From Defluviicoccus sp. (GTDB lineage: Bacteria > Pseudomonadota > Alphaproteobacteria > MPNO01), in assembly GCA_028820505.1 (NCBI GenBank), contig JAPPIT010000015.1:1-38688 (forward strand): DNA of 38,688 bases. Direction: 5' to 3'. Positions 1,609 through 28,439 of this stretch are shown one piece after another (the first letter of the stretch is position 1; every line of letters begins with the position of its first letter). The notes below the pieces were generated by a model, which was not told the origin of the DNA, did not search any database, and saw only the letters and a program-made list of their open reading frames with translations. The position numbers and the translations under genes are program-made.

Positions 1609-2445
1609 CTAGTCGGCCTCCATCAAGGCGTTCATCTCCGGGTGCAGGATAACGCCCTCGGCGAATCCGTAGGTTCCGGTGTCGGCAAGCTCGCCCGCGG
1701 CCCGGCGCGCCAGCGTGGCGAAGGCGAGCGAGAGGAGGCCGCCGATGCTGACCCGGGCCACGCCGAGCCGCTTGAGCTCGGGGACCGGCGGGGAGACCGC
1801 GCTCGCCAGAACGTTCAGCGGTCCGTCGATCCCTTCGACCAGCGCGCCGATGGTCTCGGCGTCGCGCGCGAAGGGAACGAACAGGCAGTCCGCGCCCGCC
1901 TCGCGATAGGCATTGCTGCGGCGGATCGCCTCCGCGATTGCCTCCGGCCCCTTGCCGCCGCGCAGGAACGCGTCGCAGCGCGCGTTGAGCACCGCCGGCA
2001 CGCCGAGCTCGTCCGCGGCCCTCCGCCCCGCCGCGATCCGCGCGACCGCGAGATCGAAGTCGAGCAGCGGACCGGGAACGCCGATGGCTCCGTCCTCGAT
2101 ATTCATTCCGACGGCGCCGGCCTCGACGGTCGCGCGAACCGTATCGGCGACCGCCTCGGGCTCGATCCCGTAACCCGCCTCCATGTCGGCGGTCACGGGC
2201 ACGTCCACGCGCTCGGCGATGCGGCGCACCATCCAGAGCATTTCCTCGCGCGGGATGTTCTCCCCGTCGGCATAGCCCATCAGCCAGGCCACGCCGGCGC
2301 TCGATGTCGCCACCGCCGGGTATCCGGCTTCGACGACGATCCGGGCGGTCGCGGCATCCGGGGCGTTGACCAGGACCAGCGGATCCGGCCCGTCGTGGAG
2401 TGCCTTGAAGGCTTCCGCCCTGGCGACCTGTCGGGCCTCGGTCAT
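1609..2445 (-). CDS. Isocitrate lyase/PEP mutase superfamily protein
   Basis: A 278-residue TIM-barrel protein of the PEP-mutase/isocitrate-lyase superfamily, whose members make or break C-C or P-C bonds of 2-oxo/2-hydroxy acids using Mg2+. Visible motifs are VLVNAPDAATARIVVEAGYP near the N-terminus, TADMEAGYG (Asp87, metal region), NIEDG (about 115-119) and ARCDAF (155-160). The KKCGH-type active-site loop of isocitrate and 2-methylisocitrate lyases is absent; that region reads IGVPGPLLDFD. So it is probably not a true (methyl)isocitrate lyase; oxaloacetate-decarboxylase-like or dimethylmalate-lyase-like activity is possible. The start overlaps the PrpD stop (ATGA) and has a GAGAGGAAAG ribosome site. 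It is translationally coupled to MmgE/PrpD, suggesting consecutive steps. Confidence 0.88.
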   Translation of the reverse strand: MTEARQVARAEAFKALHDGPDPLVLVNAPDAATARIVVEAGYPAVATSSAGVAWLMGYADGENIPREEMLWMVRRIAERVDVPVTADMEAGYGIEPEAVADTVRATVEAGAVGMNIEDGAIGVPGPLLDFDLAVARIAAGRRAADELGVPAVLNARCDAFLRGGKGPEAIAEAIRRSNAYREAGADCLFVPFARDAETIGALVEGIDGPLNVLASAVSPPVPELKRLGVARVSIGGLLSLAFATLARRAAGELADTGTYGFAEGVILHPEMNALMEAD

Positions 2446-3773
2446 CGGCTTTCCTCTCGGATATCGAAGGACGGCACCGGCTCGCCATGCGCCATGCCGA
2501 GCACGCCGGCGATCGCCGCTTCGGGATCGCCGACCTTGCCGAAACGCATGAGCTCGCGCGCCTTTTCCACCATCTCGTCCCGGTCGAGGGCGGCCTCGGG
2601 GTCGCCCTTGCACTTCCGGCGGGCAGCGCTCACCCGGCCCCCGTCGGCGAGCACCGCCGTTACCTCGCCGCCCCAGGCCGCCGGGTAGTCGGACAGATAG
2701 GGTTCGCCCGCGCCGACCCTCACCTTCGAGCGCAGTGACGACAGACGGGCCCGCGCCTCGGCCTCGAAGGACCCGAAACCGACCGCGCCGTCGGCGAGCG
2801 CGGCGGCGATGCAGTGCTGGAGAGAGAATTTCGCCTCGTAGGGCGATGTCGGCAGCGGCCGGTCGCAGACATCGACCGCGGCCCGGTAGGTCGACGCCTC
2901 CACCCCCGCGATCGCATCCGCATCGACCTGTGCGGAAATCTCGAGCGCGGCGTCGATCGCGGGATGGGTGTGGCGGCAGGACGGCCAGGGCTTGATCGAG
3001 GTGGCGTGCACCTGCCACGGCAAATCGGGGTGACGCAGCACCGCGCCGGGGTCGGGGTCGGGACAGGCGCCGGCATAGAAGCCCTGCGGTCCTTCGAGGA
3101 TCGCCGGCGGGCCGGTAAAGCCGCCGGCCGCGAGCTCCGCCGCGACGACCCCGGCCTCCGCCGCGCGCCCGGCGTGGAGATGCTTGCTCATCGCCCCGGT
3201 GTTGAGGAACTCCCAGAGCCCCGCCGATTGGGTGCCCGCGTTGCCGAGCGCGTGGACGGCGGCCTCGTCGTCGAGCTCCAGCAGCGCGGCGGCGGCCATT
3301 GCGGCGCCGAACGGCCCGCAGGTCGCCGTGTTGTGCCAGACCTTGTAATGCGTCGGGCCGACAGACATGCCGACCCGGCAGACCGCCTCGAACCCCTGCA
3401 GCACCGCGCGCAGGACGGTATCGCCGCCAGCCTCACCCGCCAGCGCCAGCGCGGCCGGGATCACCACGCATCCGGGGTGGGTGACCGAGCCGCGATGGAG
3501 GTCGTCGACTTCAAGGACGTGCATGCACCCGCCCATCGCCAGCGCGCGGCGTCCCGGGTCCCGCTTGTCCGCGCCCCAGCGGCGCAGTATCCGCCCGGGC
3601 TCGGTCTCCCGTCCGGCCAGCATGTTGGCGATCCCGTCGAGCACGATCAGAGCCATCCCGTCGAGATCGGATTGCGTCACCGGTTTGGACCGGATCAGCG
3701 AAACGAGTCCTTCCGTCAGCGTTTGCGCGACCGCCGGCTCGACGGCGGCCGCTTGTGCCGCGGAGCTGCTCAC
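2442..3773 (-). CDS. MmgE/PrpD family protein (2-methylcitrate dehydratase-like)
   Basis: A 443-residue protein of normal family length. MmgE/PrpD proteins dehydrate or isomerise polycarboxylates such as 2-methylcitrate, iron-independently, in the cytosol. Family landmarks: LEVDDLHRGSVTHPG (87-101), HNTATCGPFGAAMAAAALLE (147-166), KPWPSCRHTHPAID (261-274) and SPYEAKFSLQHCIAAAL further on. The start is GTG at 3773, inside the upstream amidohydrolase stop (GTGA overlap), so translation is coupled. No prpB or prpC of the classical methylcitrate cycle accompanies it. The substrate may be another hydroxy-polycarboxylate made by this operon. Confidence 0.9.
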   Translation of the reverse strand: MSSSAAQAAAVEPAVAQTLTEGLVSLIRSKPVTQSDLDGMALIVLDGIANMLAGRETEPGRILRRWGADKRDPGRRALAMGGCMHVLEVDDLHRGSVTHPGCVVIPAALALAGEAGGDTVLRAVLQGFEAVCRVGMSVGPTHYKVWHNTATCGPFGAAMAAAALLELDDEAAVHALGNAGTQSAGLWEFLNTGAMSKHLHAGRAAEAGVVAAELAAGGFTGPPAILEGPQGFYAGACPDPDPGAVLRHPDLPWQVHATSIKPWPSCRHTHPAIDAALEISAQVDADAIAGVEASTYRAAVDVCDRPLPTSPYEAKFSLQHCIAAALADGAVGFGSFEAEARARLSSLRSKVRVGAGEPYLSDYPAAWGGEVTAVLADGGRVSAARRKCKGDPEAALDRDEMVEKARELMRFGKVGDPEAAIAGVLGMAHGEPVPSFDIREESR

Positions 3774-5008
3774 GCGCTGCCGCCCGGCGGCCGGTAGTCC
3801 GGGAAACGCCCCGAGACGTCGAGATCGAACAGCTTGCGCGCGTTCTCGCCGAGGATGTTGCGCTTCGCGGTCTCGTCCAGGAACGGCAGATCGTAGATCA
3901 CGCTCGGCAGGTCCATGTCCCAGTGCGGGTAGTCGGAGCACCAGCAGAGCTGGGTCTCGGCCTTGATCATCTTGAACGTCATCTCGAGCACGTCGAGGTC
4001 GTTGGGGACCTCCATCGGCTGCGACGAGTAGTACATGTCCTGCATGTACTCGCTCGGCAGCTTCCTGAGCGACGGCGCCTCCGAACTCCGCATCTTGTAG
4101 TCGTTGTCGAGGCGCTGCATGAGCCAGGGAACCCAGGCGAGGCCCGATTCGATCCAGATCACCTTGAGCTTGGGGAAACGCTCGGGCAGACCGTTGATCA
4201 CCCAGTTCGCGCAGTGCATGGCGTTGTAGATGGTGAAGCCCATCGCATGGGTGATCAGGAACCGGTTCGTCGCGCCCAGCAGCGGGTCGTTCCAGTTGTA
4301 CGACGCGTGGAAGGCGAGCGGCTTGCCCATCTCCTCCATCAGCCGGTAGGTCTTCATGTAGGCGTTGTCGTAAACCGGCTTGTAGCGCGTCGACACCACC
4401 GAGAAGCCCACCACGCCCGGCCTGTCGCCGAAATCCCGCACCATCTTGTAGCTGGCTTCGGGATCGTTGAACGGCAGGTAGAGCATCGAGGTGATGCGCT
4501 CGTTCTGCGGCAGGATCTGTTCCACCAGCCAGCGGTTGTAGGCGCGCGACATCGCGACCTCGATCTCCGGCTGGGGGTGCAGGCCCAGGAGAAGCATCGG
4601 CGTCGGGAACATCGAGACGTAGTCGACCCCCATCGCGTCCATCCACTTGAGCGACAGGTGGATATCGCGGTGGGTGCCGTCGGCGGGCGTCTGTTCGAGC
4701 TTGCGCAGCGGATAGCGCATCACCCGGCCGGAGATGTCCTGGTAGCCCACCACGCCCGGGATCAGCGGCGACTGCGCGCCGGTGCCGCTGCCGGAATAGA
4801 CCAGGCCGGTCTGCTTGATCACCGGGTCCTCGATGTACTGGATGATGTCGCGCAGCGACTCGTTCTCGTAGTGATGGCAGTCGACATCGACGATCAGCAC
4901 GTCCTCGAGCTTGCGCCGGTCGCGCTGCCGGGCCGCGTTGACGAGGAGCTTCTTGGTGTCGAACTCCTCGACGCTCATCTTGTGGATGTCGCTTGTCGGA
5001 ATATCCAT
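3770..5008 (-). CDS. Amidohydrolase family protein (ACMSD-like TIM barrel), copy 1
   Basis: A 412-residue protein of the amidohydrolase-2 (PF04909-type) group, which includes aminocarboxymuconate-semialdehyde decarboxylase and hydrolases of ring-cleavage products. Visible: DVDCHHYE (41-48, first metal site), FPTPMLLLGLHPQPE, AFHASYNW (His233), THAMGF (His253), and SDYPHWDMDLP with the terminal Asp near 358. Where most relatives have a His-Gly-Gly ligand strand this one reads WIESGLAW (Glu286). The start has GGAG 7 nt upstream. It lies 12 bp after a small unknown gene and its TGA overlaps the PrpD GTG. It is about 60% identical by eye to the protein at 27204-28439. Decarboxylase or hydrolase activity on a carboxylated diene or ring acid is inferred, not shown. 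Confidence 0.9.
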   Translation of the reverse strand: MDIPTSDIHKMSVEEFDTKKLLVNAARQRDRRKLEDVLIVDVDCHHYENESLRDIIQYIEDPVIKQTGLVYSGSGTGAQSPLIPGVVGYQDISGRVMRYPLRKLEQTPADGTHRDIHLSLKWMDAMGVDYVSMFPTPMLLLGLHPQPEIEVAMSRAYNRWLVEQILPQNERITSMLYLPFNDPEASYKMVRDFGDRPGVVGFSVVSTRYKPVYDNAYMKTYRLMEEMGKPLAFHASYNWNDPLLGATNRFLITHAMGFTIYNAMHCANWVINGLPERFPKLKVIWIESGLAWVPWLMQRLDNDYKMRSSEAPSLRKLPSEYMQDMYYSSQPMEVPNDLDVLEMTFKMIKAETQLCWCSDYPHWDMDLPSVIYDLPFLDETAKRNILGENARKLFDLDVSGRFPDYRPPGGSA

Positions 5009-5020
5009 GTCCCGTCTCCG

Positions 5021-5347
5021 TCAGGCGCCCGACCAGGCCTGCCACATGCCGAGCTCGAACAGCTCGACATTCACGGCCCGCAGCATGGCGGTGCACATGA
5101 TCATCACGGCGGTCGCCGGCATCGCACGGTCGTCGACGAAGGGCGACCATCGCTCGCCGACCTGAAACTTCACCGTATAGAGCCTGGTCAGGGCGGTCAG
5201 CCCCTCCTGGATCAGCTCGTCGGGCGGCTCCCTGCCCTTCTCCAGCGCCAGCATCTTCTCCGCGAAGGCCTGGAGCTTGGCCGTCTCCTCTCCGACATCG
5301 GCGAGCAGATCGCCGAACTCGTCGTCGGGCTGCTCAGGCGAGGACAT
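5021..5347 (-). CDS. Uncharacterised 108-residue protein
   Basis: I do not recognise this family. The protein is acidic at its N-terminus (SSPEQPDDEFGDLLADVGEE), then mainly helical with a TALTRLYTVKFQ segment and a Met-rich stretch (ATAVMIMCTAMLRAVNVELF). There is no signal peptide, cofactor motif or convincing membrane helix. Its ATG lies within the last codons of the Rieske gene (14 nt overlap), and the amidohydrolase starts 12 bp after its stop. Translational coupling to both neighbours makes it a likely real gene and a candidate accessory subunit of the Rieske protein or the amidohydrolase. Confidence 0.8.
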   Translation of the reverse strand: MSSPEQPDDEFGDLLADVGEETAKLQAFAEKMLALEKGREPPDELIQEGLTALTRLYTVKFQVGERWSPFVDDRAMPATAVMIMCTAMLRAVNVELFELGMWQAWSGA

Positions 5348-5702
5348 AGATGCCGTCCTCTTTCTCGACGACGTCGTATTTCCTCAGGCGGAAGGTCCTG
5401 TCCGCCACCATCACGCCGGTCTCGAGATCGTACTCCCAGCCGTGCCAGGGGCAGACGATATGCATCTCGTCGTGGTTGAAGCGCATCCCCTGGTAGGTCT
5501 TGTCCTCGGCGATGACCTCCTCGACCTTGGCCATCAGCAGCCCTTCGCAGGCCGGGCCGCCCTGGTGGGCGCAAAGGTTCTGGTAGGCGTAGAGGCTGCC
5601 CTTCACGCGATAGACGCCGATCTCCGAATTGCCGTTGGGAACGATCTTGCGCTCCCCGTCGGGAAGGTCGTCGGATTTGGCGACAAAGATCTCCCTTGCC
5701 AT
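5334..5702 (-). CDS. Rieske [2Fe-2S] ferredoxin-type protein
   Basis: A 122-residue stand-alone Rieske domain. Cluster ligands are visible as CAH (Cys44, His46, in NLCAHQGG) and CPWH (Cys84, His87, in VCPWHGWEYD). The 37-residue spacing between the two motifs is longer than in classical Rieske ferredoxins but is seen in stand-alone members. The ATG at 5702 is preferred over GTG at 5708 because AAGGAG lies 8 nt from the ATG but only 2 nt from the GTG. It is probably a cytosolic electron carrier. It sits between ABC permease genes and the amidohydrolase, with no oxygenase or reductase partner in the window. Confidence 0.9.
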   Translation of the reverse strand: MAREIFVAKSDDLPDGERKIVPNGNSEIGVYRVKGSLYAYQNLCAHQGGPACEGLLMAKVEEVIAEDKTYQGMRFNHDEMHIVCPWHGWEYDLETGVMVADRTFRLRKYDVVEKEDGIYVLA

Positions 5703-5738
5703 TCGCACTTCTCCTTTCGGTAAACCGGTCCCGGCGCC

Positions 5739-6581
5739 TCAGTTGGTGGCGACCGAGAGACTGTGCGCTCCGGAACCGCCCTGATGCCGGTTCGCGTATA
5801 CCTGCAGGCGCGTCATGCCCATATTCGCGACCGCGGCGAGCGCGAAGATGATCAGGATGATCGCGTACATCTCGGCGATCCTGAACTGCTCGTAGTAGTT
5901 CCCGAGCCGGTAGCCGAGCCCGCCGTCGGCGAATTTCAGCTCGGCCACGAGAACGCCGATGACGGTGATCGCCATGCCGAGCCGAAGCCCGGTAATCACC
6001 GGGTTAACCATCGCCGGTATGTAGATCTTGGTCACCGTGTGCCAGCGATTGAGGTTGAAGGACTTGCCGACGCGGAGCAGCACCGGGTTGATCAGGATCA
6101 TGCCGAGCGCGGTGGAGAACACCACGGGGAAGAACGCCGACAGCGCGCCCTTGGCCATTTTCGAATCGATGCCGGTGCCGAAGATCAGGAACAGGATGGG
6201 CAGGAAGATGATCTTGGGCGTCGAGCCGATGGCGTTGAGATAGGGCTCGATCGCCTTGCGCAGCAGCGGGTTCAGCCCCATCGAAATGCCGAGCGCGAGC
6301 GCGATGGCGGAACCCACGACGAAGCCGACGATGTGTTCCGCGAAGGTGATCCCGAGATCGCGGTAGAAATCCGCCGCTGTTATCTCGCCCCAGATCGCGA
6401 CGGCGATCTTCCACGACGACGGGATCACGTCGCCGTAAAGGATCTCGAGGGAGCCCAGCGCGGCCAGCCCCTCCCACGCCGCCAGGAGGCAGACGACGGT
6501 GAGCGCCCGGATCCGGAATACCGTCGCCTCGCGGTCGGCGCCCGCGGCGGGCGCCGCGGCCATTACACCGGCCTGAGCCAT
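5739..6581 (-). CDS. ABC transporter permease, NitT/TauT type (second permease gene)
   Basis: A 280-residue inner-membrane permease of the nitrate/sulfonate/taurine ABC family. It has about six hydrophobic segments and an EAA-loop region (VGKSFNLNRWHTVTKIYIPA) that contacts the ATPase. The start at 6581 has AAGGA 7 nt upstream and overlaps the previous permease by 19 nt. An internal ATG at 6563, in a TAATG arrangement with the upstream stop, is an alternative but lacks a good ribosome site. With 6563-7324 it would form the heterodimeric membrane channel. The cargo is likely a small organic anion judging from the catabolic genes downstream, which is inference. Confidence 0.9.
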   Translation of the reverse strand: MAQAGVMAAAPAAGADREATVFRIRALTVVCLLAAWEGLAALGSLEILYGDVIPSSWKIAVAIWGEITAADFYRDLGITFAEHIVGFVVGSAIALALGISMGLNPLLRKAIEPYLNAIGSTPKIIFLPILFLIFGTGIDSKMAKGALSAFFPVVFSTALGMILINPVLLRVGKSFNLNRWHTVTKIYIPAMVNPVITGLRLGMAITVIGVLVAELKFADGGLGYRLGNYYEQFRIAEMYAIILIIFALAAVANMGMTRLQVYANRHQGGSGAHSLSVATN

Positions 6582-7324
6582 TTCTCGATCCTTCCGAAGC
6601 CCCAGTAGAAGAACACGCTGACCAGGATCACCGCAACGATGCTGGCATAGGTGCCGGGCGTGTCGAAGCGGAAATACATCTCCGAGACGATCCGCCCCAG
6701 CCCGCCGAAATCGATCAGGTACTCGATCGCGACGATATTGACGAGAGTATACATCACCCCGATGCGGATGCCCGTGAAGATGGTGGGCACGGCACTCGGA
6801 AGCTGGATCTTCCAGAACATCTCGCGCTCGGAGACGTTGAAGCTCCGCCCGACATTCAGCAGCGTCTGCGACACGCCGAGCAGCCCCTGCCGCGTCTGGA
6901 TGACGATGGGGATCGCGCCCGGAATGAAGCCCATCATGATCAGGGTCAGGTAGGTGCGCCCGAAGATCACCAGGAACAGCGGGTAGAGCAGCACCGTCGG
7001 CGCCGCGAAGGCAGCCGCGAGCCAGCCTTCATAAGCGATGCCGTAGCGCCGGTTCCGATAGAGGAAATAGCCGAAAGGCACCCCGATCGAGAGCGCGATC
7101 GCGGTGGAGGCGGCGGTCATGCCGAGCGTGACGAAAAAGTTGCCCACCAGGTCCATGTCCTCCTGGACCGGGGGGAACGCGAGAAACGTGTCGGACGGGC
7201 GCGGGACGACGAGCTCCATCACCATCCCGGTCTCGACCGCGATCTCGAGCACGCAGAGAAATATCGCGAGCCCGATACCGCCGACCAAGACGGGCGACTT
7301 GGAAAGCCTGAACGAACCCGTCAT
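6563..7324 (-). CDS. ABC transporter permease, NitT/TauT type (first permease gene)
   Basis: A 253-residue inner-membrane permease. N-terminal helix VGGIGLAIFLCVLEIAVETG, several further membrane segments, and an EAA-type loop (NVGRSFNVSEREMFWKIQLP) followed by PTIFTGIRIGVMYTLV. It starts 24 bp after the solute-binding protein gene. It is only distantly similar to its partner at 5739-6581, as usual for a heterodimeric importer. It belongs to the ATPase, binding protein, permease, permease order of this operon. Confidence 0.9.
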   Translation of the reverse strand: MTGSFRLSKSPVLVGGIGLAIFLCVLEIAVETGMVMELVVPRPSDTFLAFPPVQEDMDLVGNFFVTLGMTAASTAIALSIGVPFGYFLYRNRRYGIAYEGWLAAAFAAPTVLLYPLFLVIFGRTYLTLIMMGFIPGAIPIVIQTRQGLLGVSQTLLNVGRSFNVSEREMFWKIQLPSAVPTIFTGIRIGVMYTLVNIVAIEYLIDFGGLGRIVSEMYFRFDTPGTYASIVAVILVSVFFYWGFGRIEKWLRPV

Positions 7325-7348: not shown

Positions 7349-8314
7349 CTAGATCGGCTTGTTGCCCATCGGATGGACCAGCTCGTGCAGCTGTTCCTTG
7401 GTGAGCAGCTTCTTGATCTTCTTGTTCTCGAGGGCGATCTGGTTGATCTTCTCAAGTCCCGCGACCGGCAGGAAGGTCGAGGAGTTGAGCGGCGTGTCCA
7501 TCGGCGCCGACTTTATGTCCTCGTAGTTGAGCTTCCAGCGCTTGGCGTAAGCCTTGAGCTGATCGTCGCTCGAATAAGTGCGGGCCTGGCCTTCGGTCAA
7601 CGCGTTCATCAGACGCCGGGCTGCGTCGCGGTTCTTGTCGAGCCAGTTCACGTTGGCCGCGATCACCCGGATGGTGGTTCCGGTCAGCGCGGCGGCCGCG
7701 GCCCCGGTGCCGATGATGCGGATCTTCTTCTCGCGCAACAGGTTCTTGTTGAGCGGGAAGACCGACCACCCGGTGGCGACCTGGCCGGACATGAGCTGGG
7801 TGCGCGAGCCGGACGGGCCGCCGACCGACACCGCCTTGGCCGGGATGTTGAGCGCCTCCTTGATGAACAGGACGGCGAGGTTGGTGGTCGAGCCGGGCCT
7901 GGAATAGGCGAACTCGTGCTCCGCCTTGAGGTCCTTGAAGCTCTTGATCGGGCTGTCCGCCTTCACGTACCAGTAGAGGTCCGGCACGCCGCGGATGTTG
8001 CTCCCCAGCACGCGGACCGGCGCGCCCTTGGAATAGGCCGACACCACGCCGAGCACGCCGTTGCCCCACACCACGTCCTGGCTCCCGGTGATCACCGCCT
8101 GCAGCGATGCCGCGCCGCCCGAGCCGTGGATGATCGAGACGTCGAGCCCGTACTTCTCGAAGATCCCGTTCTCCTTGGCGGAGTAGGGATGCTCGGTCTC
8201 GAACACCACCTTGGTGCTGTTGACCATGCGTATCTTGTCGAGCGCCGCGGCGGGCGCGGCGGCGACAACGGCCGCAATGGCGGCCAGCGCCGCCGTTTTT
8301 ACGTATCGTGCCAT
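7349..8314 (-). CDS. ABC transporter substrate-binding protein (NitT/TauT/SsuA-like)
   Basis: The start at 8314 has GAGAGG upstream and gives a clean Sec signal peptide, MARYVKTAALAAIAAVVAAA then PAAA before LDKIRM. A longer upstream reading frame is rejected. The mature protein of about 297 residues has a periplasmic binding fold typical of NMT1/SsuA-like proteins: KENGIFEKYGLDVSIIHGSG, SLQAVITGSQDVVWG and KDLKAEHEFAYSRPGSTTNL segments. No lipobox is present, so it should be a soluble periplasmic receptor. It is followed by two permeases and preceded by the ATPase, making a complete importer. Confidence 0.92.
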   Translation of the reverse strand: MARYVKTAALAAIAAVVAAAPAAALDKIRMVNSTKVVFETEHPYSAKENGIFEKYGLDVSIIHGSGGAASLQAVITGSQDVVWGNGVLGVVSAYSKGAPVRVLGSNIRGVPDLYWYVKADSPIKSFKDLKAEHEFAYSRPGSTTNLAVLFIKEALNIPAKAVSVGGPSGSRTQLMSGQVATGWSVFPLNKNLLREKKIRIIGTGAAAAALTGTTIRVIAANVNWLDKNRDAARRLMNALTEGQARTYSSDDQLKAYAKRWKLNYEDIKSAPMDTPLNSSTFLPVAGLEKINQIALENKKIKKLLTKEQLHELVHPMGNKPI

Positions 8315-8381: not shown

Positions 8382-9188
8382 CTACCGCGCGGCGAGCTCG
8401 GCTTCCGCCTCGACCATGCCGCGCGATGCCTCCTCGCGAAGCAGCGTCCATAGCCTGCCGACATATTCGCCGAATTTCGGCGTGGAAATGACCTCCGACG
8501 AACGCGGACGCGGCAGATCGATCGAGATCACTTCCTTGATCTTTCCCGGCCGGAAGGACATTACCACCACCCGGTCGGACAGCTGGACCGCCTCGGTGAT
8601 GTTGTGGGTGATCAGCAGCATCGTCTGGTTCAGCGCCGCCCAGATCTCCAGCATCTTGTCGCCCAGCAGCATGCGCGTTTGTTCGTCGAGCGCGCCGAAC
8701 GGCTCGTCGAGCAGCATGATGCGCGGCTCGTAGGCCAGCGTCCGCGCCACCGCCGTCCGCTGCTTCATCCCGCCCGAGAGCTGCGCCGGGTAGTGGTTCT
8801 CGAATCCTTCGAGGCCGACCAGGCTCACGAATTTCCGCGCCCGCTCATCCCGCTCCGGTTTGCCCATCCCCTGGACCTCGAGCGGGAAGGCGACGTTGTC
8901 GAGCGTGGTTCGCCACGGGAAGGTCGATTCCTCCTGGAACACCACGCCCACGTCGCGATGCGCGCCGTCCACCGCCCGTCCGTCGATCCGGACGCTGCCC
9001 TCGTACTGGGCGATCAGGCCTCCGACGATGTTGAACAGGGTCGACTTGCCGCAGCCGCTCGGGCCGATCACCGACACGAACTCGCCCTCGGCCACGTCGA
9101 GCGTCACCCGGTCGAGGGCCTGGACGGGATTCTCGCCGTCAAGGTCGTAGGTCTTGGAGACCTCGGAAATCTCGAGAATGTCGGCCAT
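8382..9188 (-). CDS. ABC transporter ATP-binding protein, NitT/TauT type
   Basis: A 268-residue nucleotide-binding subunit. Walker A GPSGCGKST (42-50), Q-loop Gln85 in FQEESTFPWRT, signature LSGGMKQ (137-143), Walker B IMLLDE (157-162), D-loop GALDEQ and H-loop His195 are all intact. The FPWRT-type Q-loop is characteristic of SsuB/TauB-like ATPases. It is the first gene of the minus-strand operon and is divergent from the FMN dehydrogenase at 9277. The start at 9188 has GGAG 4 nt upstream. It powers uptake through the two permeases at 5739-7324. Confidence 0.95.
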   Translation of the reverse strand: MADILEISEVSKTYDLDGENPVQALDRVTLDVAEGEFVSVIGPSGCGKSTLFNIVGGLIAQYEGSVRIDGRAVDGAHRDVGVVFQEESTFPWRTTLDNVAFPLEVQGMGKPERDERARKFVSLVGLEGFENHYPAQLSGGMKQRTAVARTLAYEPRIMLLDEPFGALDEQTRMLLGDKMLEIWAALNQTMLLITHNITEAVQLSDRVVVMSFRPGKIKEVISIDLPRPRSSEVISTPKFGEYVGRLWTLLREEASRGMVEAEAELAAR

Positions 9189-13960: not shown

Positions 13961-13991
13961 AGCGGTTCGATTTGAAACGGACAGGTTCTAG
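13961..13991. repeat. Short palindromic element D, copy 1, overlapping a stop codon
   Basis: Sequence blocks AGCGGTTCGATTTGAAACGG and ACAGGTTCTAG. On the minus strand the CTAG end supplies the TAG stop of UbiD copy 1 (CTA at 13988-13990). Other copies are at 15764, 25031, 15606 and 13785. Confidence 0.65.
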
Positions 13992-15640
13992 TCGTCGCCC
14001 TCGTCCACGCGGCGGACTTCGGTGTTCATTTCCACGTCCTTGCGCCGTCGCTGGGCGATGATCCGGCCGGTCTCGAAATAGTCGCCCTCGGTCGCGAGCG
14101 CGGCCGCGCGGTCGAACTCGTCGGACCATTCGCCGAGGCTGTAGCCGTGCCACGGCGTCTCGGGTTTGAGCGGCGGCAGGCCGAGCTCCTCCCATATCCT
14201 CCGGGCGTTCTCCATGAACTCGCGCTTGGGCAGCGAGATCGGCGGGAAATCTTCCTTGAGCGTCGCGTCGATAAGCACGCTCGCGTCCTCGCCGTCGTTG
14301 CGCAGGCTGCGCGGGCCGTGGCCCTGGTCGCGATGGCCGAGCACCTCGAGATCGAGGGCCGGGTTGGCGCGGTACGCCATCGCCCAGAACAGCGCGTCGG
14401 CATTGTCGAGGTCGATGTCGTCATTGACCGCGATGACGTATTTGCCGGCCGCGCGATGCAGCGAGGCGGCGCCGTAGAGCGCGCGCCAGATCTCCGTTCT
14501 CGGCAGGCTCCGCTCCACCTGAATGACGATCACCTTGCGGATATTGGTCAGCGGCTCGTGCATGCCGACGCGGATCACGCCCTTGATGCCGAGTCGATCT
14601 CGAAGATGGGCGAGAAAGAGCGGCTCCATGCCGACCCGCTTGATCGTGCTCGACTCCGACGGCGTGACCTGGCTGATGATGGAGGTGAGGACGGCATTTT
14701 TTCGCCGGGTGACGGCGGTCACGTCCATGAAGGCGTTGAACTCCTGCAGGTTGACGTGGCCGTGGCTTTCGCCGAACGGCGCCTCCGGCTCGAGATATTC
14801 GGTGTCGATATAGCCCTCGACCACGATCTCCGCCTCCGCCGGGACGAGGAGGTCGACGGTCTTCGCCCTGACGACGTTCAGCGGATGGCCGACCAAGCCG
14901 CCCGCGATGTCGAACTCGCTGACCGTCTCGGGCAGCTTGAGCGTCGAGGTGAAGGTGACGCAGGGCGGCGCGCCGAGCACGACCGCGGCCGGCATGCGCT
15001 CGCCGCGCTCGCGGTATTTCAGCCAGTGGCCGTAGATGCCCGGGCGGAGCTCGAGCGAGGGGTTCATGCCGAGGCGCAGGGGCGCCTTCACCTGCCCCCG
15101 GTAGTTGCCCATGTTCTGGACGCTGGTGTCGGGGTCGCGGGTGATGTACTGCGAGAGCGTCGTGTAGGGCGCGTTGTCCCAGCCGGGCGTCGAGATCGGC
15201 ACCGGGATGCCGTCGAGCGCGTTGCCCTCGACATTCAGCGCCTCGCCGGTGAACACGAGCTCGTGGCACGGCGCGTCCGCCACTTCGCGCGGCGGAACGG
15301 GATTGGCGATGGCCTCCGCCCAGCGCTCCTCGATCTTGTCGAGCTCGCAGCCGATGCCGCGCCGGTAGATCTCCCGGCTCGCCGCCAGCCCGCCCACGAT
15401 CACCGGGATGTCGTAGCGCCGGCCCTTGGAGTCGACCACGTTGGTGAACAGGAACGCCTTCCGCTCGTGCTCCGGGATGCCGCCGCGGAACTGCCATCGG
15501 ACCAGCGGATGCATTTCCGTGTCCTTGTTGATCTCCCGGTCGACGCGGACCAGCAACCCCGCCTCTTCCAGGGTCGCGATGTGGTCGTGGAGATCGGGGT
15601 AGCCCCTAGAGCGGATCCGTTTTTGTTGGAACCGCTTCAT
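13988..15640 (-). CDS. UbiD-family (prenyl-FMN) decarboxylase, copy 1
   Basis: A 550-residue protein. UbiD enzymes use prenylated FMN for reversible decarboxylation of unsaturated or aromatic acids. By alignment with Fdc1 the cofactor/metal ligands Asn176, His205 and Glu242 and the catalytic Arg181, Glu286 and Glu291 are all present (VQNMGNYRGQ, GHWLKYR, SEFDIAGG, EPEAPFGESHGHV). The first dozen residues (MKRFQQKRIRSR) are encoded by repeat element D4 and differ from the paralogues, which share homology from GYPDLHDHI onward. The stop codon lies in element D1. It has a GGGAGAG ribosome site. The paralogues at 15791 and 18172 share the same motifs. Substrate unknown; no UbiX is in the window. 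Confidence 0.93.
   Translation of the reverse strand: MKRFQQKRIRSRGYPDLHDHIATLEEAGLLVRVDREINKDTEMHPLVRWQFRGGIPEHERKAFLFTNVVDSKGRRYDIPVIVGGLAASREIYRRGIGCELDKIEERWAEAIANPVPPREVADAPCHELVFTGEALNVEGNALDGIPVPISTPGWDNAPYTTLSQYITRDPDTSVQNMGNYRGQVKAPLRLGMNPSLELRPGIYGHWLKYRERGERMPAAVVLGAPPCVTFTSTLKLPETVSEFDIAGGLVGHPLNVVRAKTVDLLVPAEAEIVVEGYIDTEYLEPEAPFGESHGHVNLQEFNAFMDVTAVTRRKNAVLTSIISQVTPSESSTIKRVGMEPLFLAHLRDRLGIKGVIRVGMHEPLTNIRKVIVIQVERSLPRTEIWRALYGAASLHRAAGKYVIAVNDDIDLDNADALFWAMAYRANPALDLEVLGHRDQGHGPRSLRNDGEDASVLIDATLKEDFPPISLPKREFMENARRIWEELGLPPLKPETPWHGYSLGEWSDEFDRAAALATEGDYFETGRIIAQRRRKDVEMNTEVRRVDEGDD
15606..15638. repeat. Short element D, copy 4, encoding the UbiD1 N-terminus
   Basis: Sequence CTAGAGCGGATCCGTTTTTG to ACCGCTTC; ends GAGCGG and CCGCTTC are imperfect inverses. 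It is inverted relative to D2. Read on the minus strand it encodes residues 2-12 of UbiD copy 1. Confidence 0.6.
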
Positions 15641-15763: not shown

Positions 15764-15794
15764 GGCGCTTCTATCTGAAACGGACAGGCTCTAG
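15764..15794. repeat. Short element D, copy 2, overlapping a stop codon
   Basis: Blocks GGCGCTTCTATCTGAAACGG and ACAGGCTCTAG. On the minus strand its CTAG end supplies the TAG stop of UbiD copy 2 (CTA at 15791-15793), just as D1 does for UbiD copy 1. Confidence 0.65.
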
Positions 15795-17443
15795 TCATCG
15801 TCCTCGACCCAGCGCACCGGGGTTTCCGGCTCAACGGCGCGCCGCTGGCGCTGCGCGGTGAGCCGGCCGTTCTCCAGATAGCCGCCCCCGACGGCGCGCA
15901 GGGCGGCCTGTTCCCAGTGCTCCTCCCAGTCGCCCAACGAATACCCGGCCCACGGGCTCTCCGGGTTGAGCGGCGGCAGGTCCAGCCGTTCCCAGATCTT
16001 CCGCGCGCGCTTCATGTAGGCCTCCCGAGGCAGCGCGACCGGTGGCATGTCGCCCTTCAGGGTGGCGTCGATCAGCAGCGTCGAATCTTCGAAACCGGGG
16101 TCTTCGGTCTTGGGCCCGTGGCCGCGGTGGCGGTGGTCGAGGACGGCCGAGTCCTCGCGCGGGTTGGCACGGTAGGCGATCGACCACCACACGGCATCGG
16201 TATTCTCGGGGTCGATGTCGTCGGAGACCGCGACGACGTATTTCCCGCACGCCGATTGCAGCGACGACGCGCCGTAGAGCGCGCGCCACACCTCGGTCCT
16301 CGGCACGCCGCGCTCGAACTGGACGAAGATGACGCGGCGGATATTGGTCAACGGCTCGTGCATCGCCACCCGCTTTACGCCCTTGATCCCGAGACGGTCG
16401 GTCAGATGCGCGAGGAACAGCGGCTCGTAGGCGACCCGCTTGATGACGCTCGATTCCGAAGGCGTCACCTGGCTCACGATCGAGGGCAGGATGGCGCCGC
16501 GACGGTGGGTGATCGCGGTCACCCGCATGATCATGTTGTAGTCTTCGAGCGCGACATGGCCGTGGCTTTCGCCGAACGGCGCTTCGGGCTCCACGAGGTC
16601 GGTGTCGATCAGCCCCTCGATGACGATCTCCGAATCGGCGGGAACGGCGAGGTCCACCGTCCTGCACCGGACCGTCTCGATGGGCGCGCCGACGATTCCG
16701 CCGGCCACCGCGACTTCGTCCAGCCCCATCTGAAGCTTCTGCGGCGCGCAATAGGCGACCGCGGGCGGCGGGCCGAGGACGATCGCGCAGGGCATGGGCA
16801 CGCCGCGTTCGCGGTATTGCCGCCAGTGGCGGTAACCTTCCGCCCCGCCCGACCGCGTCGCCATGCGGACCGCGAGCCGGTCCGGCGCCTTGAGCCCCGC
16901 CCGGTAGGTGCCCATGTTCTGGACGCCGGTTTCGGGGTTCCTCGTCACGCAGCCGGTGGCGGTCAAATAGGGCGCGGCGTCGAATCCGGGCGTCGAGATC
17001 GGCACCGGAAGCGCGTCGAGCCCCCTCCCCTCGCCCAGCAGCGCGTTGCCCTCGATCACGATCTCCTGACAGGGCGCGCCCGTCACCTCGACGGGCGGTA
17101 CGGGGTTCGCGATGGCCTCGTTCCACCTGTCGCCGATCTCCTCGACGGGGACGCCCATGCCGATGGCGTAGATCGCGGCGTTGGCGGCGAGCGCGCCGAC
17201 GACCACGGGCATGTCGTAGTCCCGGCCCCTGGCGTCGGTCACGTCGGTGAAGAGGAAGGCCTTGCGCTGGTCCTCCTTCAGTCCGCCGCGGAACTGCCAG
17301 CGGACCAAGGGGTGCATCTCGGCGTCCTTGTCGATCCGCTCGTCGACGCGGAACAGCAATCCCGCCCGGTCGAGCGCGTCCAGATGGTCCCGGAAATCCG
17401 GATAGGCGCGCTGCGCTTTCGACTCCAGTCGGGAAGCGGCCAT
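15791..17443 (-). CDS. UbiD-family (prenyl-FMN) decarboxylase, copy 2
   Basis: A 550-residue paralogue. Predicted Mn/prenyl-FMN ligands are Asn176, His206 and Glu243; catalytic Arg181, Glu287 and Glu292 are intact (VQNMGTYRAG, EGYRHWRQY, LDEVAVAGG, EPEAPFGESHGHV). The SLELRPG-type segment of copy 1 is replaced by VRMATRSGGAEGYRHW, so the substrate pocket near the metal probably differs. The ATG follows the SDR stop with no gap (TAGATG), so the two are coupled. The stop is inside element D2 and the C-terminus is accordingly short. Cytosolic. Carboxylase or decarboxylase direction cannot be decided. Confidence 0.93.
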   Translation of the reverse strand: MAASRLESKAQRAYPDFRDHLDALDRAGLLFRVDERIDKDAEMHPLVRWQFRGGLKEDQRKAFLFTDVTDARGRDYDMPVVVGALAANAAIYAIGMGVPVEEIGDRWNEAIANPVPPVEVTGAPCQEIVIEGNALLGEGRGLDALPVPISTPGFDAAPYLTATGCVTRNPETGVQNMGTYRAGLKAPDRLAVRMATRSGGAEGYRHWRQYRERGVPMPCAIVLGPPPAVAYCAPQKLQMGLDEVAVAGGIVGAPIETVRCRTVDLAVPADSEIVIEGLIDTDLVEPEAPFGESHGHVALEDYNMIMRVTAITHRRGAILPSIVSQVTPSESSVIKRVAYEPLFLAHLTDRLGIKGVKRVAMHEPLTNIRRVIFVQFERGVPRTEVWRALYGASSLQSACGKYVVAVSDDIDPENTDAVWWSIAYRANPREDSAVLDHRHRGHGPKTEDPGFEDSTLLIDATLKGDMPPVALPREAYMKRARKIWERLDLPPLNPESPWAGYSLGDWEEHWEQAALRAVGGGYLENGRLTAQRQRRAVEPETPVRWVEDDD

Positions 17444-18202
17444 CTACCACATGGCCGAGCCGCCATCGACGACGATGGTCTGGCCCGTCACGAAGTCGCT
17501 GTCGGCCGAGGCGAGATAGACACAGGCGCCGACCAGGTCTTCCGGAGTCTCGTCCTCCTTGATCGCGCGCGTCGCCCGCGTCCGCTCCGGCCCGCCGCCC
17601 ATCCAGTTGGTGCGCTTGAGCACGTTCTCCGACATCGTCGAGCCCGGCGCGATCGCGTTCACGCAGATATTGTCGTCGCCGAGCTCGCGGGCGAGCGAGC
17701 GGGTGATGCCGAGCACGGCGGCCTTGGACGCGTCGTAATGCAGGAAGAACGGCGCGCCCTTGAAGATGCGCCCGGTGCAGATCGAGATGATCTTGCCGTA
17801 TTTCCTCTTGCGCATCTCGGGCGCGGCCGCCTTGCAGCAGAGCCAGACGCCCTTGGTGTTGACGGCGAGCACCCGGTCCCATTCCTCGACCGTGATTTCG
17901 TCGAAGGCCTTGCGCTCCACCGCGGTGAAGACGGCGGCGTTGTTGACGACGATGTCGAGCCCGCCGAACGCTTCTACCGTCTGCGCCACCATCGCCTTGC
18001 AGGAGTCCTCGTCGGCGACGTCGGTCGGCACGTCGATCGCCTCCGCGCCGCCCGACTTCAGCTCCTCGACGATCCCGGCGCCGGAATCGAGATCGGCGAT
18101 GGCGATTTTCGCCCCCTCGGCCGCCATGGCGCGGGCGAAGGCCGCGCCGATCCCCTGCGCCGCGCCGGTGACTATCGCGACGCGTCCGTCAAGCCGTCCC
18201 AT
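17444..18202 (-). CDS. Short-chain dehydrogenase/reductase (SDR)
   Basis: A 252-residue classical SDR. NAD(P)-binding TGAAQGIG (12-19), NNAA (87-90), VNTKG and the YxxxK pair Tyr156/Lys160 (HYDASKAAV) are present. The position of the catalytic serine, 13 residues before the tyrosine, is Thr143 (SICTGRIF). Asp37 after the second strand (IADLD) favours NAD over NADP. C-terminal SDFVTGQTIVVDGG is typical. The gene overlaps the 3' end of UbiD copy 3 by 31 nt and abuts UbiD copy 2, so it is an integral step of this operon, likely oxidising or reducing an alcohol/ketone before or after decarboxylation. Confidence 0.93.
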   Translation of the reverse strand: MGRLDGRVAIVTGAAQGIGAAFARAMAAEGAKIAIADLDSGAGIVEELKSGGAEAIDVPTDVADEDSCKAMVAQTVEAFGGLDIVVNNAAVFTAVERKAFDEITVEEWDRVLAVNTKGVWLCCKAAAPEMRKRKYGKIISICTGRIFKGAPFFLHYDASKAAVLGITRSLARELGDDNICVNAIAPGSTMSENVLKRTNWMGGGPERTRATRAIKEDETPEDLVGACVYLASADSDFVTGQTIVVDGGSAMW

Positions 18203-19866
18203 GTGAGCTCTCCCTCATCGCTTCCCGAACCGCTCGCCCCGGGATTTCCCTCGTCGAGGGTGCGGACCTCGGTGTTCATCGAAACGTCGCCGCGGCGGCG
18301 CTGGGCGATGATCTGCCCGGTCTCCCAGTATTCGCTGCGCACGGCGCGCCGCGCCATCGTTTCCAGGTCCTCGTTCCACTCGCCGAGATCGTAGCCGAAC
18401 CAGGGCCGCTCGGGCCTGAGCTTCGGCAGGCCGAGCTCGTTCCAGATCTCAGCCGCCGCCTCCATGTATTGCCGCTTGGGCAGCGAGACCGGCGGGAAGG
18501 TCTCCTTCAGCGTCGCGTCCACCAGCACCGCGCTGTCCTCGCTGTCGATCAGGCTGCGCGGGCCGTGCCCCTCGTCCTTGTGCTTGAGGATCTCGACGTC
18601 GCGGTGCGGCTTGGACCGGTAGGACATCGCCCAGAAGACGGCGTTGGTGTCGTCGGGGTCGATATCCTCGTTGACCGCGATCACCCACTTGCCCTCGGCG
18701 CGGCGGAGCGAGGCGACGCCGTAGAGCGCGCGCCAGATCTCGGTGCGCGGAATATCGCGCTCGACGACGACGACGATCAGCTTGTGGAGCGAGGTCAGCG
18801 GCTCGTGGGTGGCGACGTGCCTGACGCCCTTGATCCCCAGATGGTCGCGCAGATGCTCGATCTGCGCCGCCTCGTAGGCCGGCCGCTTGATGGCGCTCGA
18901 TTCCGACGGCGTGACCTGGCTTACCCAGGAGGTAATGACCGCGTTCCGGCGCCGGGTGATCGCGGTCACGTCCACATAGCCGTTATATTCCTGCAGGTTG
19001 ACGTGACCGTGGCTCTCGCCGAACGGCGCCTCGGGCTCCAGGAGCTCGGTCGAGACAAAGCCCTCGATCACCACCTCCGCCTCGGCCGGCACCAGAAGGT
19101 CGACCGTCTTCGCCTCGACCACGTTGAGGGGCTTCCCCACCAGCCCGCCCGAGACCCAGAGCTCGTCGAGCTTCTCCGGCATCTTCTGGACCGCGGTGAA
19201 CGAGACGACCGGCGGGCAGCCGAGGACGATGGCGCAGGGCATCGGCTCGCCGCGCCGCTTCCACGCCTCCCAGTGCATGTATCCGCCGGTCCGGAGCTCG
19301 ATCGAGGGGTTCATGCCGATCCGGTTCGGCGCCTTCAGCATCCCCCGGTAATTGCCCATGTTCTGGACGCCGGTCTCCGGATCCCTGGTGATGAAGTGCG
19401 ACGAGGTGGTGTAGGGCGCGTTGTCCCATCCGGGCGAGGATATCGGCACCGGAAGCGCGTCGAGCCCGTTTCCGTTCAGCAGCTCGTTGTCCCGGTAGAC
19501 GATCTCGTGGCACGGCGCGTCTTCGACGACATTGGGTTCGATGGGCGCGTTCATCGCCCGGATCCAGTTCTCCTTGATCTCGGCGAGCGGCACGCCCATG
19601 CCCATCTCGTAGACCCGGCCGTTGGCGGCGAGGCCGCACACCAGGACCGGGATGTCGAATTCCCGCCCCTTGGAGTCGGTGACGTTGGTGAACAGGAACG
19701 CCTTGCGGTCTTCGGCATCGATGCCGCCGCGGAACTGCCAGCGGACCAGCGGATGCATCTCGGTATCCTTGTTGATCCGCCGGTCGACCTCGATCAGGAG
19801 GCCGGCCTCGCGCAGCGCGGCGATATGTTCGTGCAGGTCGCGGTACCCCCGCGCGGGCATCGACAT
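18172..19866 (-). CDS. UbiD-family (prenyl-FMN) decarboxylase, copy 3
   Basis: A 564-residue paralogue and the first gene of the UbiD operon. Predicted ligands Asn169, His198 and Glu235 and catalytic Arg174, Glu279 and Glu284 are intact (VQNMGNYRG, GGYMHWEAW, LDELWVSGG, EPEAPFGESHGHV). Its C-terminus extends beyond those of copies 1 and 2 with a low-complexity GASGSGSDEGELTWD tail, and overlaps the SDR start by 31 nt. The ATG at 19866 has AAGGAG about 10 nt upstream. A sigma-70-like promoter lies at 19939-19967. It is nearer to copy 1 than to copy 2 by eye (shared MNPSIELR-type segment). Confidence 0.93.
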   Translation of the reverse strand: MSMPARGYRDLHEHIAALREAGLLIEVDRRINKDTEMHPLVRWQFRGGIDAEDRKAFLFTNVTDSKGREFDIPVLVCGLAANGRVYEMGMGVPLAEIKENWIRAMNAPIEPNVVEDAPCHEIVYRDNELLNGNGLDALPVPISSPGWDNAPYTTSSHFITRDPETGVQNMGNYRGMLKAPNRIGMNPSIELRTGGYMHWEAWKRRGEPMPCAIVLGCPPVVSFTAVQKMPEKLDELWVSGGLVGKPLNVVEAKTVDLLVPAEAEVVIEGFVSTELLEPEAPFGESHGHVNLQEYNGYVDVTAITRRRNAVITSWVSQVTPSESSAIKRPAYEAAQIEHLRDHLGIKGVRHVATHEPLTSLHKLIVVVVERDIPRTEIWRALYGVASLRRAEGKWVIAVNEDIDPDDTNAVFWAMSYRSKPHRDVEILKHKDEGHGPRSLIDSEDSAVLVDATLKETFPPVSLPKRQYMEAAAEIWNELGLPKLRPERPWFGYDLGEWNEDLETMARRAVRSEYWETGQIIAQRRRGDVSMNTEVRTLDEGNPGASGSGSDEGELTWDGLTDASR

Positions 19867-25030: not shown

Positions 25031-25056
25031 ACGCTTCCGCCCGAAACGGACGCTAG
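25031..25056. repeat. Short element D, copy 3, overlapping a stop codon
   Basis: Sequence ACGCTTCCGCCCGAAACGGA then CGCTAG. Its CTAG end supplies the TAG stop codon (25053-25055) of the TctA-TctB fusion gene, the third gene in the window to end this way. Confidence 0.55.
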
Positions 25057-27203: not shown

Positions 27204-28439
27204 TTACTCCGCCGCGATGCGCTCGGGGAACCGCTCGCTCACGTCGAGCTTGAAGACCTTCTGGGCGTTCTCCCCGAGGATCTTGCGCTTGGCCTTCTCG
27301 TCGAGGAACGGCAGGTCCCAGATCACGCCGGGCAGGTCCATGTCCCAGTGCGGGTAGTCGGTCGCGAAGAGCATGCTGTTCTCCGCATCCATCGCCTTGA
27401 AGGTCGCCTCCAGCAGCCAGTCCTCGTTGGGCCGTTCCATCGGCTGGCTGGTGTAGTACATCTCCTTCATGTACTCGCTCGGCAGGCGCTTGAGCGAGGG
27501 GCATTCCGAGCTTCGCATCCGGTACTCGTTGTCGAGGCGCATCATCAGCCACGGCACCCAGGCGATGCCGGACTCGATCCAGATGGTCTTGAGGTCGGGG
27601 AACCGCTCGGGCAGGCCGTTGACCACCCAGTTGGTGCAGTGGACGACGTTGTACCAGGTGAAGCCCAGCGCGTGGACGGCGATGAACCGGTTCGAGGTCC
27701 GGAACATCGGGTCGTCCCAGTTGAAGCCCGAGTGGAAGCCGAGCGGCAGGCCGCGCTCCTCGACGGCGCGGTAGATCTTCATGTAGTCGTTGTCGTGGAC
27801 CGGCTTGTGCCGGACCGACGTGACCATGAAGCCGATCACGCCGGGATAATCGGCGAAGTCCTCGACCATCTTCATCGCCGCGTTGTGGTCGTTGAACGGC
27901 AAATAGAGCATCGACTTGATGCGCGACGATCCGGGCAGCACGCGCTCGACCAGCCAGCGGTTGTAGGCGCGCGCCAGATGGTTCTCGACCTCGGGTTGCG
28001 GGTGCATGGCGAGGCCGAGCATCGGCGTCGGGAACATGCAGGTGTAGTCGACCCCCATCGCGTCCATCCAGCGGTGGCCGAGATGGATGTCCCGATGCAC
28101 GCCGTCGGCGGGCGTCTGCTCCATGCGGCGGAGCGGATAGCGCGTCACCCTGCCGCCGATATCCTGGTAGCCGACCCGGCCGAGGGCGAACATGCCGCCG
28201 CCGCGCTGGGCGACCTGGCCGCCCGAGCGGGCGAGCTGCTGGAGGACCGGGTCTTCCATGTATTCCATGATCTCGGCCATCGATTCGCTCTCATAGTGGT
28301 GCGAATCGACGTCGACGATCAGCACGTCCTGCAGGTTGCGCCGGTCGCGCTGCCTGGCCGCGTTCGCCAGCACCTTGTCGGTGTCGAACGAATCGACGCT
28401 CATCCGGAAAAACTGCTCGTTGCCGGTCGGGAGTTCCAT
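27204..28439 (-). CDS. Amidohydrolase family protein (ACMSD-like TIM barrel), copy 2
   Basis: A 411-residue paralogue of the protein at 3770-5008. Shared blocks include NAARQRDRR, DVDSHHYE (43-50, first metal site), QTPADGVHRDIHL, WMDAMGVDY, LPFNDHNAA, WIESGIAWVPWLM (Glu replacing the usual His-Gly-Gly ligand) and TDYPHWDMDLPGVIWDLPF. The start has GAGGGG 6 nt upstream. It lies between a TRAP large permease (41 bp upstream) and the TctA-TctB fusion, so transport and hydrolysis/decarboxylation of one substrate are probably co-expressed. The exact reaction is not assignable. Confidence 0.9.
   Translation of the reverse strand: MELPTGNEQFFRMSVDSFDTDKVLANAARQRDRRNLQDVLIVDVDSHHYESESMAEIMEYMEDPVLQQLARSGGQVAQRGGGMFALGRVGYQDIGGRVTRYPLRRMEQTPADGVHRDIHLGHRWMDAMGVDYTCMFPTPMLGLAMHPQPEVENHLARAYNRWLVERVLPGSSRIKSMLYLPFNDHNAAMKMVEDFADYPGVIGFMVTSVRHKPVHDNDYMKIYRAVEERGLPLGFHSGFNWDDPMFRTSNRFIAVHALGFTWYNVVHCTNWVVNGLPERFPDLKTIWIESGIAWVPWLMMRLDNEYRMRSSECPSLKRLPSEYMKEMYYTSQPMERPNEDWLLEATFKAMDAENSMLFATDYPHWDMDLPGVIWDLPFLDEKAKRKILGENAQKVFKLDVSERFPERIAAE

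Follow-up and report, generated by a model that had tools for sequence, protein, structure and literature searches.

We have followed up a question raised by a compact group of genes in Defluviicoccus sp.: why is the gene of a stand-alone Rieske ferredoxin coupled to those of a 108-residue protein and an amidohydrolase? The window, by which we mean the whole 38,688-nt stretch of DNA that was analysed, comes from a genome of 5.5 Mb in 228 contigs. The first-pass annotation had stated that no oxygenase is present and had offered the small protein as a candidate partner in an undescribed redox or decarboxylation complex. The results presented here indicate that the three genes probably encode one multi-component monooxygenase built on an amidohydrolase-related dinuclear oxygenase (ARO), one of a group of O2-activating enzymes that has come to notice only recently, with the small protein as its dedicated third (docking or effector) subunit.

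Gene organisation and the small protein

The genes concerned are the following.

8382..9188, minus strand: ABC importer ATPase of the nitrate/taurine/sulfonate type (PF00005, E 8.5e-32)
7349..8314, minus strand: NMT1-like substrate-binding protein (PF09084, E 1.7e-16); start chosen to match its L030 homologue (5034-5999) in length, the longest window ORF extending to 8464
6563..7324, minus strand: ABC importer permease 2 (PF00528)
5739..6581, minus strand: ABC importer permease 1 (PF00528)
5334..5702, minus strand: Rieske [2Fe-2S] ferredoxin, 122 aa, ATG start (PF00355, E 1.2e-14)
5021..5347, minus strand: small protein, 108 aa, undescribed family (ORF, no family match)
3770..5008, minus strand: Amidohydro_2 protein, the predicted ARO, 412 aa (PF04909, E 4.3e-20)
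2442..3773, minus strand: MmgE/PrpD-family protein, GTG start at 3773 (PF03972, E 1.4e-50; PF19305, E 4.5e-33)
1609..2445, minus strand: PEP mutase/isocitrate lyase superfamily protein (PF13714, E 1.4e-80)
27204..28439, minus strand: second ARO of the same clade (695 bits with the clade ARO profile)

The nine genes from the ABC ATPase through the PEP-mutase-superfamily gene run in one direction and probably form one operon. Re-reading of the minus strand confirmed the first-pass coordinates of the three central genes, the Rieske and small genes overlapping by 14 nt and the small gene being separated from the ARO gene by 12 bp. The overlaps reported further downstream are also correct, with 4 nt shared between the ARO and MmgE/PrpD genes (at 3773) and again between the MmgE/PrpD and PEP-mutase-superfamily genes (at 2445). 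NCBIfam PrpD equivalogs match the MmgE/PrpD protein only far under cut-off, and the prpB and PEP mutase equivalogs match the PEP-mutase-superfamily protein under cut-off. Rfam families, riboswitches and other RNAs included, gave zero matches in the window at gathering score. Elsewhere in the window, three UbiD-family decarboxylase genes (13988-15640, 15791-17443 and 18172-19866) lie on one strand together with a short-chain dehydrogenase gene (17444-18202).

The small ORF is under coding constraint. Comparison with four close relatives revealed substitutions at codon positions 1/2/3 of 2/0/28, 4/2/23, 3/4/22 and 4/7/24, and this excess at third positions, combined with the recurring gene linkage described below, rules out a chance ORF. 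No family member produced a credible Pfam or NCBIfam match, and a PDB profile search with the family returned matches at E 0.24 or worse. Scattered weak matches to HydG (7 of 44 members, best E 0.012), PAS_10 (2 of 44, best E 0.0037), DUF6285 (1 of 44, E 0.025) and PRK14693 (1 of 44, E 0.0024) were considered and rejected as signs of relationship. The closest named relatives are found in Defluviicoccus MAGs. The new element here is thus this protein, whose family has not been described before.

The AlphaFold2 model of the small protein (pLDDT 82.6) predicts four helices, at residues 18-33, 43-62, 78-91 and 96-106. Foldseek returned no match to this model at E 0.001 or better, and the best VIA score, Z 6.0, lies where VIA itself describes scores as usual for helical models; the modelled helices may still correspond to a known fold. 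In 44 aligned sequences T79 and W102 are invariant, M1, S2, Q47, F97, L99 and M101 are conserved at 90% or more, and position 98, always E or D, is the sole fully acidic column. Conservation peaks in the C-terminal F-E/D-L-x-M-W helix, which has the appearance of a binding surface. All 44 proteins carry a negative net charge. None of their Cys or His residues is conserved; together with the acidic column and the hydrophobic C-terminal motif, this suggests a protein-binding rather than a metal-binding role. Conservation at the N-terminus is possibly forced in part by the coding overlap, as the MSSP start is encoded within the last Rieske codons, at 5334-5347 in the window and correspondingly in homologues.

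The amidohydrolase and its probable electron supply

Very probably the amidohydrolase is an oxygen-using metalloenzyme that receives its electrons from the adjacent Rieske protein. Its predicted metal ligands are D43, H45, H234, E287, D359 and H362, with D364 in the second sphere. AibH2 is described as binding its metals through D25, H27, H211, E265, D337 and H340 in the text of PMC7782822, and loss of its second-sphere residue D342 lowers activity according to that of PMC10401708. In HMMER alignments AibH2 H211, E265, D337, H340 and D342 correspond to H234, E287, D359, H362 and D364, respectively, and the assignment of D43 and H45 rests on the D-x-H columns of 8SM7, 8SM6 and 8SM9, the AibH2 alignment starting at residue 106. 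D43, H45, H234 and E287 are kept in 50 of 50 homologues and D359, H362 and D364 in 49, the deviating row being a shorter ORF of 379 aa (L066); three ARO ORFs truncated at the end of a contig (L031, L034 and L039) were left out of this alignment.

Sequence and structure searches lead to the same enzymes. With either the window ARO or the 50-row profile as query, the best PDB sequence matches were 8SM7, 8SM9, 8SM6, 8SM8 and AibH2, decarboxylases falling behind. When the window ARO model (pLDDT 84.1) was ranked by VIA, the first 11 entries were all AROs, representing six distinct proteins at Z 37.8-33.1, with 8SM7 and 8SM6 both at 37.8. They were followed by an uncharacterised amidohydrolase (Z 32.5), tied with PtmU3 (33.1), and by decarboxylases at 31.2 and lower. 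AROs also lead the Foldseek ranking, but PtmU3 appears there at rank 39, below several decarboxylases. With this one exception, the ligand set and the structural ranking speak against a decarboxylase or hydrolase complex. The earlier proposal for the small protein stands in that it belongs to an undescribed family and is a likely redox partner, and is not supported with respect to decarboxylation, the amidohydrolase being closer to AROs than to decarboxylases; the statement that an oxygenase is lacking does not hold either, as the likely oxygenase is the amidohydrolase itself, and 28 Ring_hydroxyl_A matches occur elsewhere in the genome. The metal content of the window ARO, Fe2 or Mn/Fe, and its O2 chemistry would follow those of its relatives. 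Members of its clade score more than 550 bits with the clade profile, solved AROs no more than 181.

One region of the model is of low confidence. Loop 86-98, which contains the invariant residues Q90, G94 and R95, has a pLDDT under 50 in the lone-protein model and aligns with the SfbO stretch bearing the sulfate-binding N67. That a partner protein orders this loop is a testable idea; the low confidence could be due instead to a shallow alignment.

The Rieske ferredoxin is the predicted electron donor to the ARO. Its cluster ligands, C44-x-H46 and C84-x2-H87, are accompanied by an invariant C52, and all four ligands and C52 are present in 44 of 44 aligned homologues, in agreement with the PF00355 ligand pattern; the C44-C84 spacing is 40 in 41 of the 44 and 39-41 in all. 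Clade Rieske proteins have a long loop between the ligand pairs which holds the further invariant Cys, and a like motif (HQGGxxCEG) is seen in the Rieske protein beside a non-clade ARO (locus L130).

A reductase would have to be supplied from outside the operon, in which none of the nine genes encodes a flavin ferredoxin reductase. The only FNR-type reductase gene detected near a module is at locus L086 (one good query, from L143, with a motif scan in agreement), and ferredoxin reductases are absent among the 25 Pfam families listed for 146 neighbour ORFs, 121 further families being unlisted. In the window genome two FAD_binding_6 matches were obtained, both on other contigs, alongside the 28 Ring_hydroxyl_A matches, and the many Rieske oxygenases of this genome seem to share few reductases of the FAD_binding_6 type. 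Further oxygenases might draw on the window's Rieske protein as well.

Linkage and co-occurrence of the three genes

The first-pass annotation had named occurrence of the small protein mostly away from Rieske and amidohydrolase genes as an observation that would count against its proposal. Inspection of its neighbourhoods revealed the opposite: in each of the 54 loci counted (the window, L030-L072, L081-L088, L124 and L129), which come from diverse Alphaproteobacteria, the small gene lies with a Rieske and an ARO gene on the same strand. These loci were gathered by searches with the small protein, except L124 and L129, which came from ARO searches, and no pair of them shares 1 kb at >=97% identity. 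Gene order is Rieske-small-ARO in 47 loci, ARO-Rieske-small in four, Rieske-ARO-small in two and ARO-small-Rieske in one; in locus L068 the ARO gene lies 5.8 kb away. Because the order changes, the association appears to be kept by selection and not merely by inheritance as a block. The 14-nt overlap of the Rieske and small genes recurs in 33 of the 54 loci, with start codons assigned by a script rule. Across the 54 loci no ORF was noticed in which the small protein is fused to the Rieske protein or the ARO. Three further small-protein matches (L089-L091) were discarded as false, having E values of 0.006-0.007, lying in long ORFs and lacking a Rieske or ARO gene nearby; the genomes of L090 and L091 gave no small-protein match at E 0.001.

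Over 42 loci the three protein distance matrices agree with one another at r 0.90-0.91, a value to which shared ancestry contributes, vs a maximum of 0.21 for the small protein and ARO in 1000 permutations. Two tandem AROs occur in L037-L039 and L072, and the small gene is still present in each. Conversely, seven non-clade ARO-like loci (L130, L131 and L148-L152, with 3.7 kb read for L148-L152) are without the small gene, indicating that the small protein belongs with this ARO clade and not with AROs generally. A Rieske gene adjoins five of the seven (L130, L148 and L150-L152), and L130 carries a pair of AibH1/H2-like genes.

Co-occurrence extends to whole genomes. A clade ARO (more than 550 bits, the next match reaching 166) is found in 17 of 385 Alphaproteobacteria genomes with the best four ARO candidates per genome scored, and these same genomes also gave the small protein: a single-sequence search recovered it in 16, after a weak match in G164 was dropped, and the ARO neighbourhood revealed it in the remaining one (G080). 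Since the single-sequence search missed G080, divergent small-protein copies in genomes without a clade ARO could be missed likewise, the small-protein profile having been run on only some of this sample. In a phylum sample of 398 genomes, with the best 12 small-protein and best four ARO candidates per genome scored and two weak small-protein matches (G525 and G555) dropped, both proteins are found in the same three genomes; in 12 others the PF04909 relatives are all remoter ones and the small protein gave no match. The genome of the window is itself part of both samples. Within the order of the window the small protein is present in 26 of 27 genomes, with two or more copies in 21, the single genome lacking it being 67% complete. 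A search of 78 genomes, run without a positive control, produced no match to the small protein. Coverage outside Pseudomonadota consisted of short patterns of a single small protein in genome contigs plus a plasmid collection, which yielded nine small-protein matches, the neighbourhoods of two of which were read.

Clade AROs are also found on their own. The second window ARO (27204-28439), 22 kb away, keeps all six ligands (ligand string DDHHEDHD) and has no Rieske or small gene beside it, nor does the window contain a further match of either. A TctA-type transporter gene (25053-27149) follows it directly on this strand. In all, at least seven clade AROs lack an adjoining Rieske or small gene (window 27204-28439, L122, L123 and L125-L128; L122 is a 4.9-kb contig), and all reside in genomes which hold a full module. 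Stand-alone AROs may borrow the Rieske and small proteins of that module. The window genome encodes a second full Rieske-small-ARO module (C206:37733-39639; L053 7734-9640), the small protein of which is of the F-D-L-A-M-W subfamily.

Possible role of the small protein

The pairing of a dinuclear amidohydrolase with a Rieske ferredoxin has precedents. In the 2-aminoisobutyrate monooxygenase of Rhodococcus wratislaviensis, AibH1H2-AibG-AibF, the text of PMC7782822 and PMC10401708 describes dinuclear ligands and a second-sphere Asp that match those of the window ARO, a small Rieske ferredoxin within the operon, and transporter and catabolic genes around it. The ferredoxin AibG is assigned there as electron partner of AibH1H2 (PMC7782822), and a Rieske ferredoxin gene is stated to lie beside 90% of AibH2-like genes (PMC10401708). 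The two systems differ in that the Aib operon has a second amidohydrolase, AibH1, and an adjacent FMN reductase, AibF, as described in those sources, whereas the window operon has neither and encodes a single ARO; identity of the window ARO to the AibH1H2 structures is 23-24%. Conversely, the window operon has the small protein, and none of this kind is among the listed rows of the AIB gene table. SfbO, reported in the text of PMC10811679 as discovered through adjacent Rieske ferredoxin genes, and the other ARO candidates treated there (PDB 8SM6-8SM9) are the best sequence and structure matches of the window ARO, at an identity of 28% at most. Mention of a small helical companion protein is absent from the ARO text, figures aside, of these three open-licence papers (PMC7782822, PMC10401708 and PMC10811679). 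Apart from the papers on AROs and AibH1H2, literature searches of open-licence PubMed Central yielded unrelated work.

Gene structure, coding nature, family membership, ligand conservation, linkage and co-occurrence in genomes are direct results of the analysis; the path of the electrons, and what the small protein binds and does, are what we infer for the window. The importer would bring the substrate, a small molecule, into the cell, and a reductase encoded elsewhere would reduce the Rieske ferredoxin, from which electrons would pass to the dinuclear site of the ARO. This site, Fe2 or Mn/Fe, would activate O2 and hydroxylate a C-H bond of the substrate. The small protein would bind the ARO or the ferredoxin, where it might dock the ferredoxin, gate the active site, or time or permit electron transfer.

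Toluene-4-monooxygenase provides an analogy, combining a soluble diiron hydroxylase with a Rieske ferredoxin, TmoC, and a cofactor-less effector of ∼100 aa, TmoD. The window set resembles it in the kinds of components, as a system that would work alike. The folds differ: the window hydroxylase is a TIM barrel, unrelated to the diiron hydroxylase, and effector proteins of soluble diiron monooxygenases are alpha/beta whereas the small-protein model is all-helical. A relation to the MmoB/TmoD effectors received no match in the PDB profile search and, because the fold search also gave no clear relative of the small protein, the analogy has no homology behind it. A broader reading, advanced tentatively, is that the small protein represents a new kind of regulatory subunit, the first of its family, which controls O2 activation and electron entry in AROs. 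If true, a four-part machine of dinuclear hydroxylase, Rieske ferredoxin, effector and reductase would have evolved twice on unrelated folds.

The known AROs count against the small protein as a working subunit, as they run without it: in the text of PMC10401708 AibH2 has AibH1 as its partner and PtmU3 needs no auxiliary subunit, and SfbO is reported in PMC10811679 as active alone in vitro. Nor is linkage by itself proof of a complex. A monooxygenase formed by the ARO and Rieske protein, with the small protein as an assembly factor outside the working complex that loads or folds the dinuclear site or the Rieske cluster, is a serious though unlikely alternative. AROs are described as metalation-sensitive in the text of PMC10401708 and PMC10811679, and co-translation through the 14-nt overlap would suit a chaperone equally well. 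An evident metal-handling site is lacking in the small protein, however, given its lack of conserved Cys or His and its one fully acidic column, and other AROs are reported to be metal-loaded in E. coli without such a protein (PMC10811679). It is also quite unlikely that the small protein replaces AibH1, with no role other than the structural one of making the hydroxylase oligomer complete. The dependence of AibH2 on AibH1 given in PMC7782822 would fit this, as would the single ARO gene of the window operon and the lack of the small gene beside the AibH1/H2-like pair of L130, but AibH1 is described in the same source as a whole TIM barrel, against ∼100 helical residues here, the tandem-ARO loci retain the small gene, and SfbO is stated to function without a second subunit type (PMC10811679).

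Two alternatives would detach the Rieske protein from the amidohydrolase. PF04909 includes redox-neutral decarboxylases and hydratases such as ACMSD and gamma-resorcylate decarboxylase, and the window enzyme could be one of these, the Rieske and small proteins serving something else. Decarboxylase structures do reach high scores in VIA and several outrank PtmU3 in Foldseek; against this, most AROs score higher in both sequence and structure, the six ligands and D364 are kept, and the Rieske gene is linked in every one of the 54 loci, such that we consider this reading improbable. It is more improbable still, to the point of being hardly credible, that the ferredoxin serves a Rieske oxygenase elsewhere in the genome and is positioned here incidentally. 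The 28 Ring_hydroxyl_A matches would offer it partners, yet the linkage to the ARO holds across diverse Alphaproteobacteria, and ARO-Rieske pairing is a known pattern according to the text of PMC10811679. The reading of the small protein as a third subunit of an ARO monooxygenase is preferred.

With a clade that carries an additional protein, frequently co-translated, the question whether certain AROs depend on an effector can be tested directly, and such a partner could explain failed reconstitutions. The small protein also provides a search handle for more AROs, and the results suggest that many alphaproteobacterial genes with an amidohydrolase annotation encode oxygenases.

The genes which follow the ARO suggest dehydration and cleavage of the product, as they encode PrpD-family and PEP-mutase-superfamily proteins. 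By a speculative comparison with the methylcitrate cycle, which is a guess, the hydroxylated product would pass to the PrpD-family dehydratase and then be cleaved by the PEP-mutase-superfamily lyase. A common pathway was not apparent from neighbour genes, the sets of which differ from locus to locus and variously include TctC, NMT1 and ABC proteins, aldehyde dehydrogenase, amidase, cupin, gluconolactonase and TauD. On the Aminobacter plasmid pANY103a (L082 7625-16581), an ARO-small-Rieske operon that offers a good prospect of finding a substrate includes a flavin hydroxylase, a second amidohydrolase downstream, a LigB-like dioxygenase, RraA-family proteins and a 4-hydroxybenzoate 3-monooxygenase, and looks like an aromatic acid pathway.
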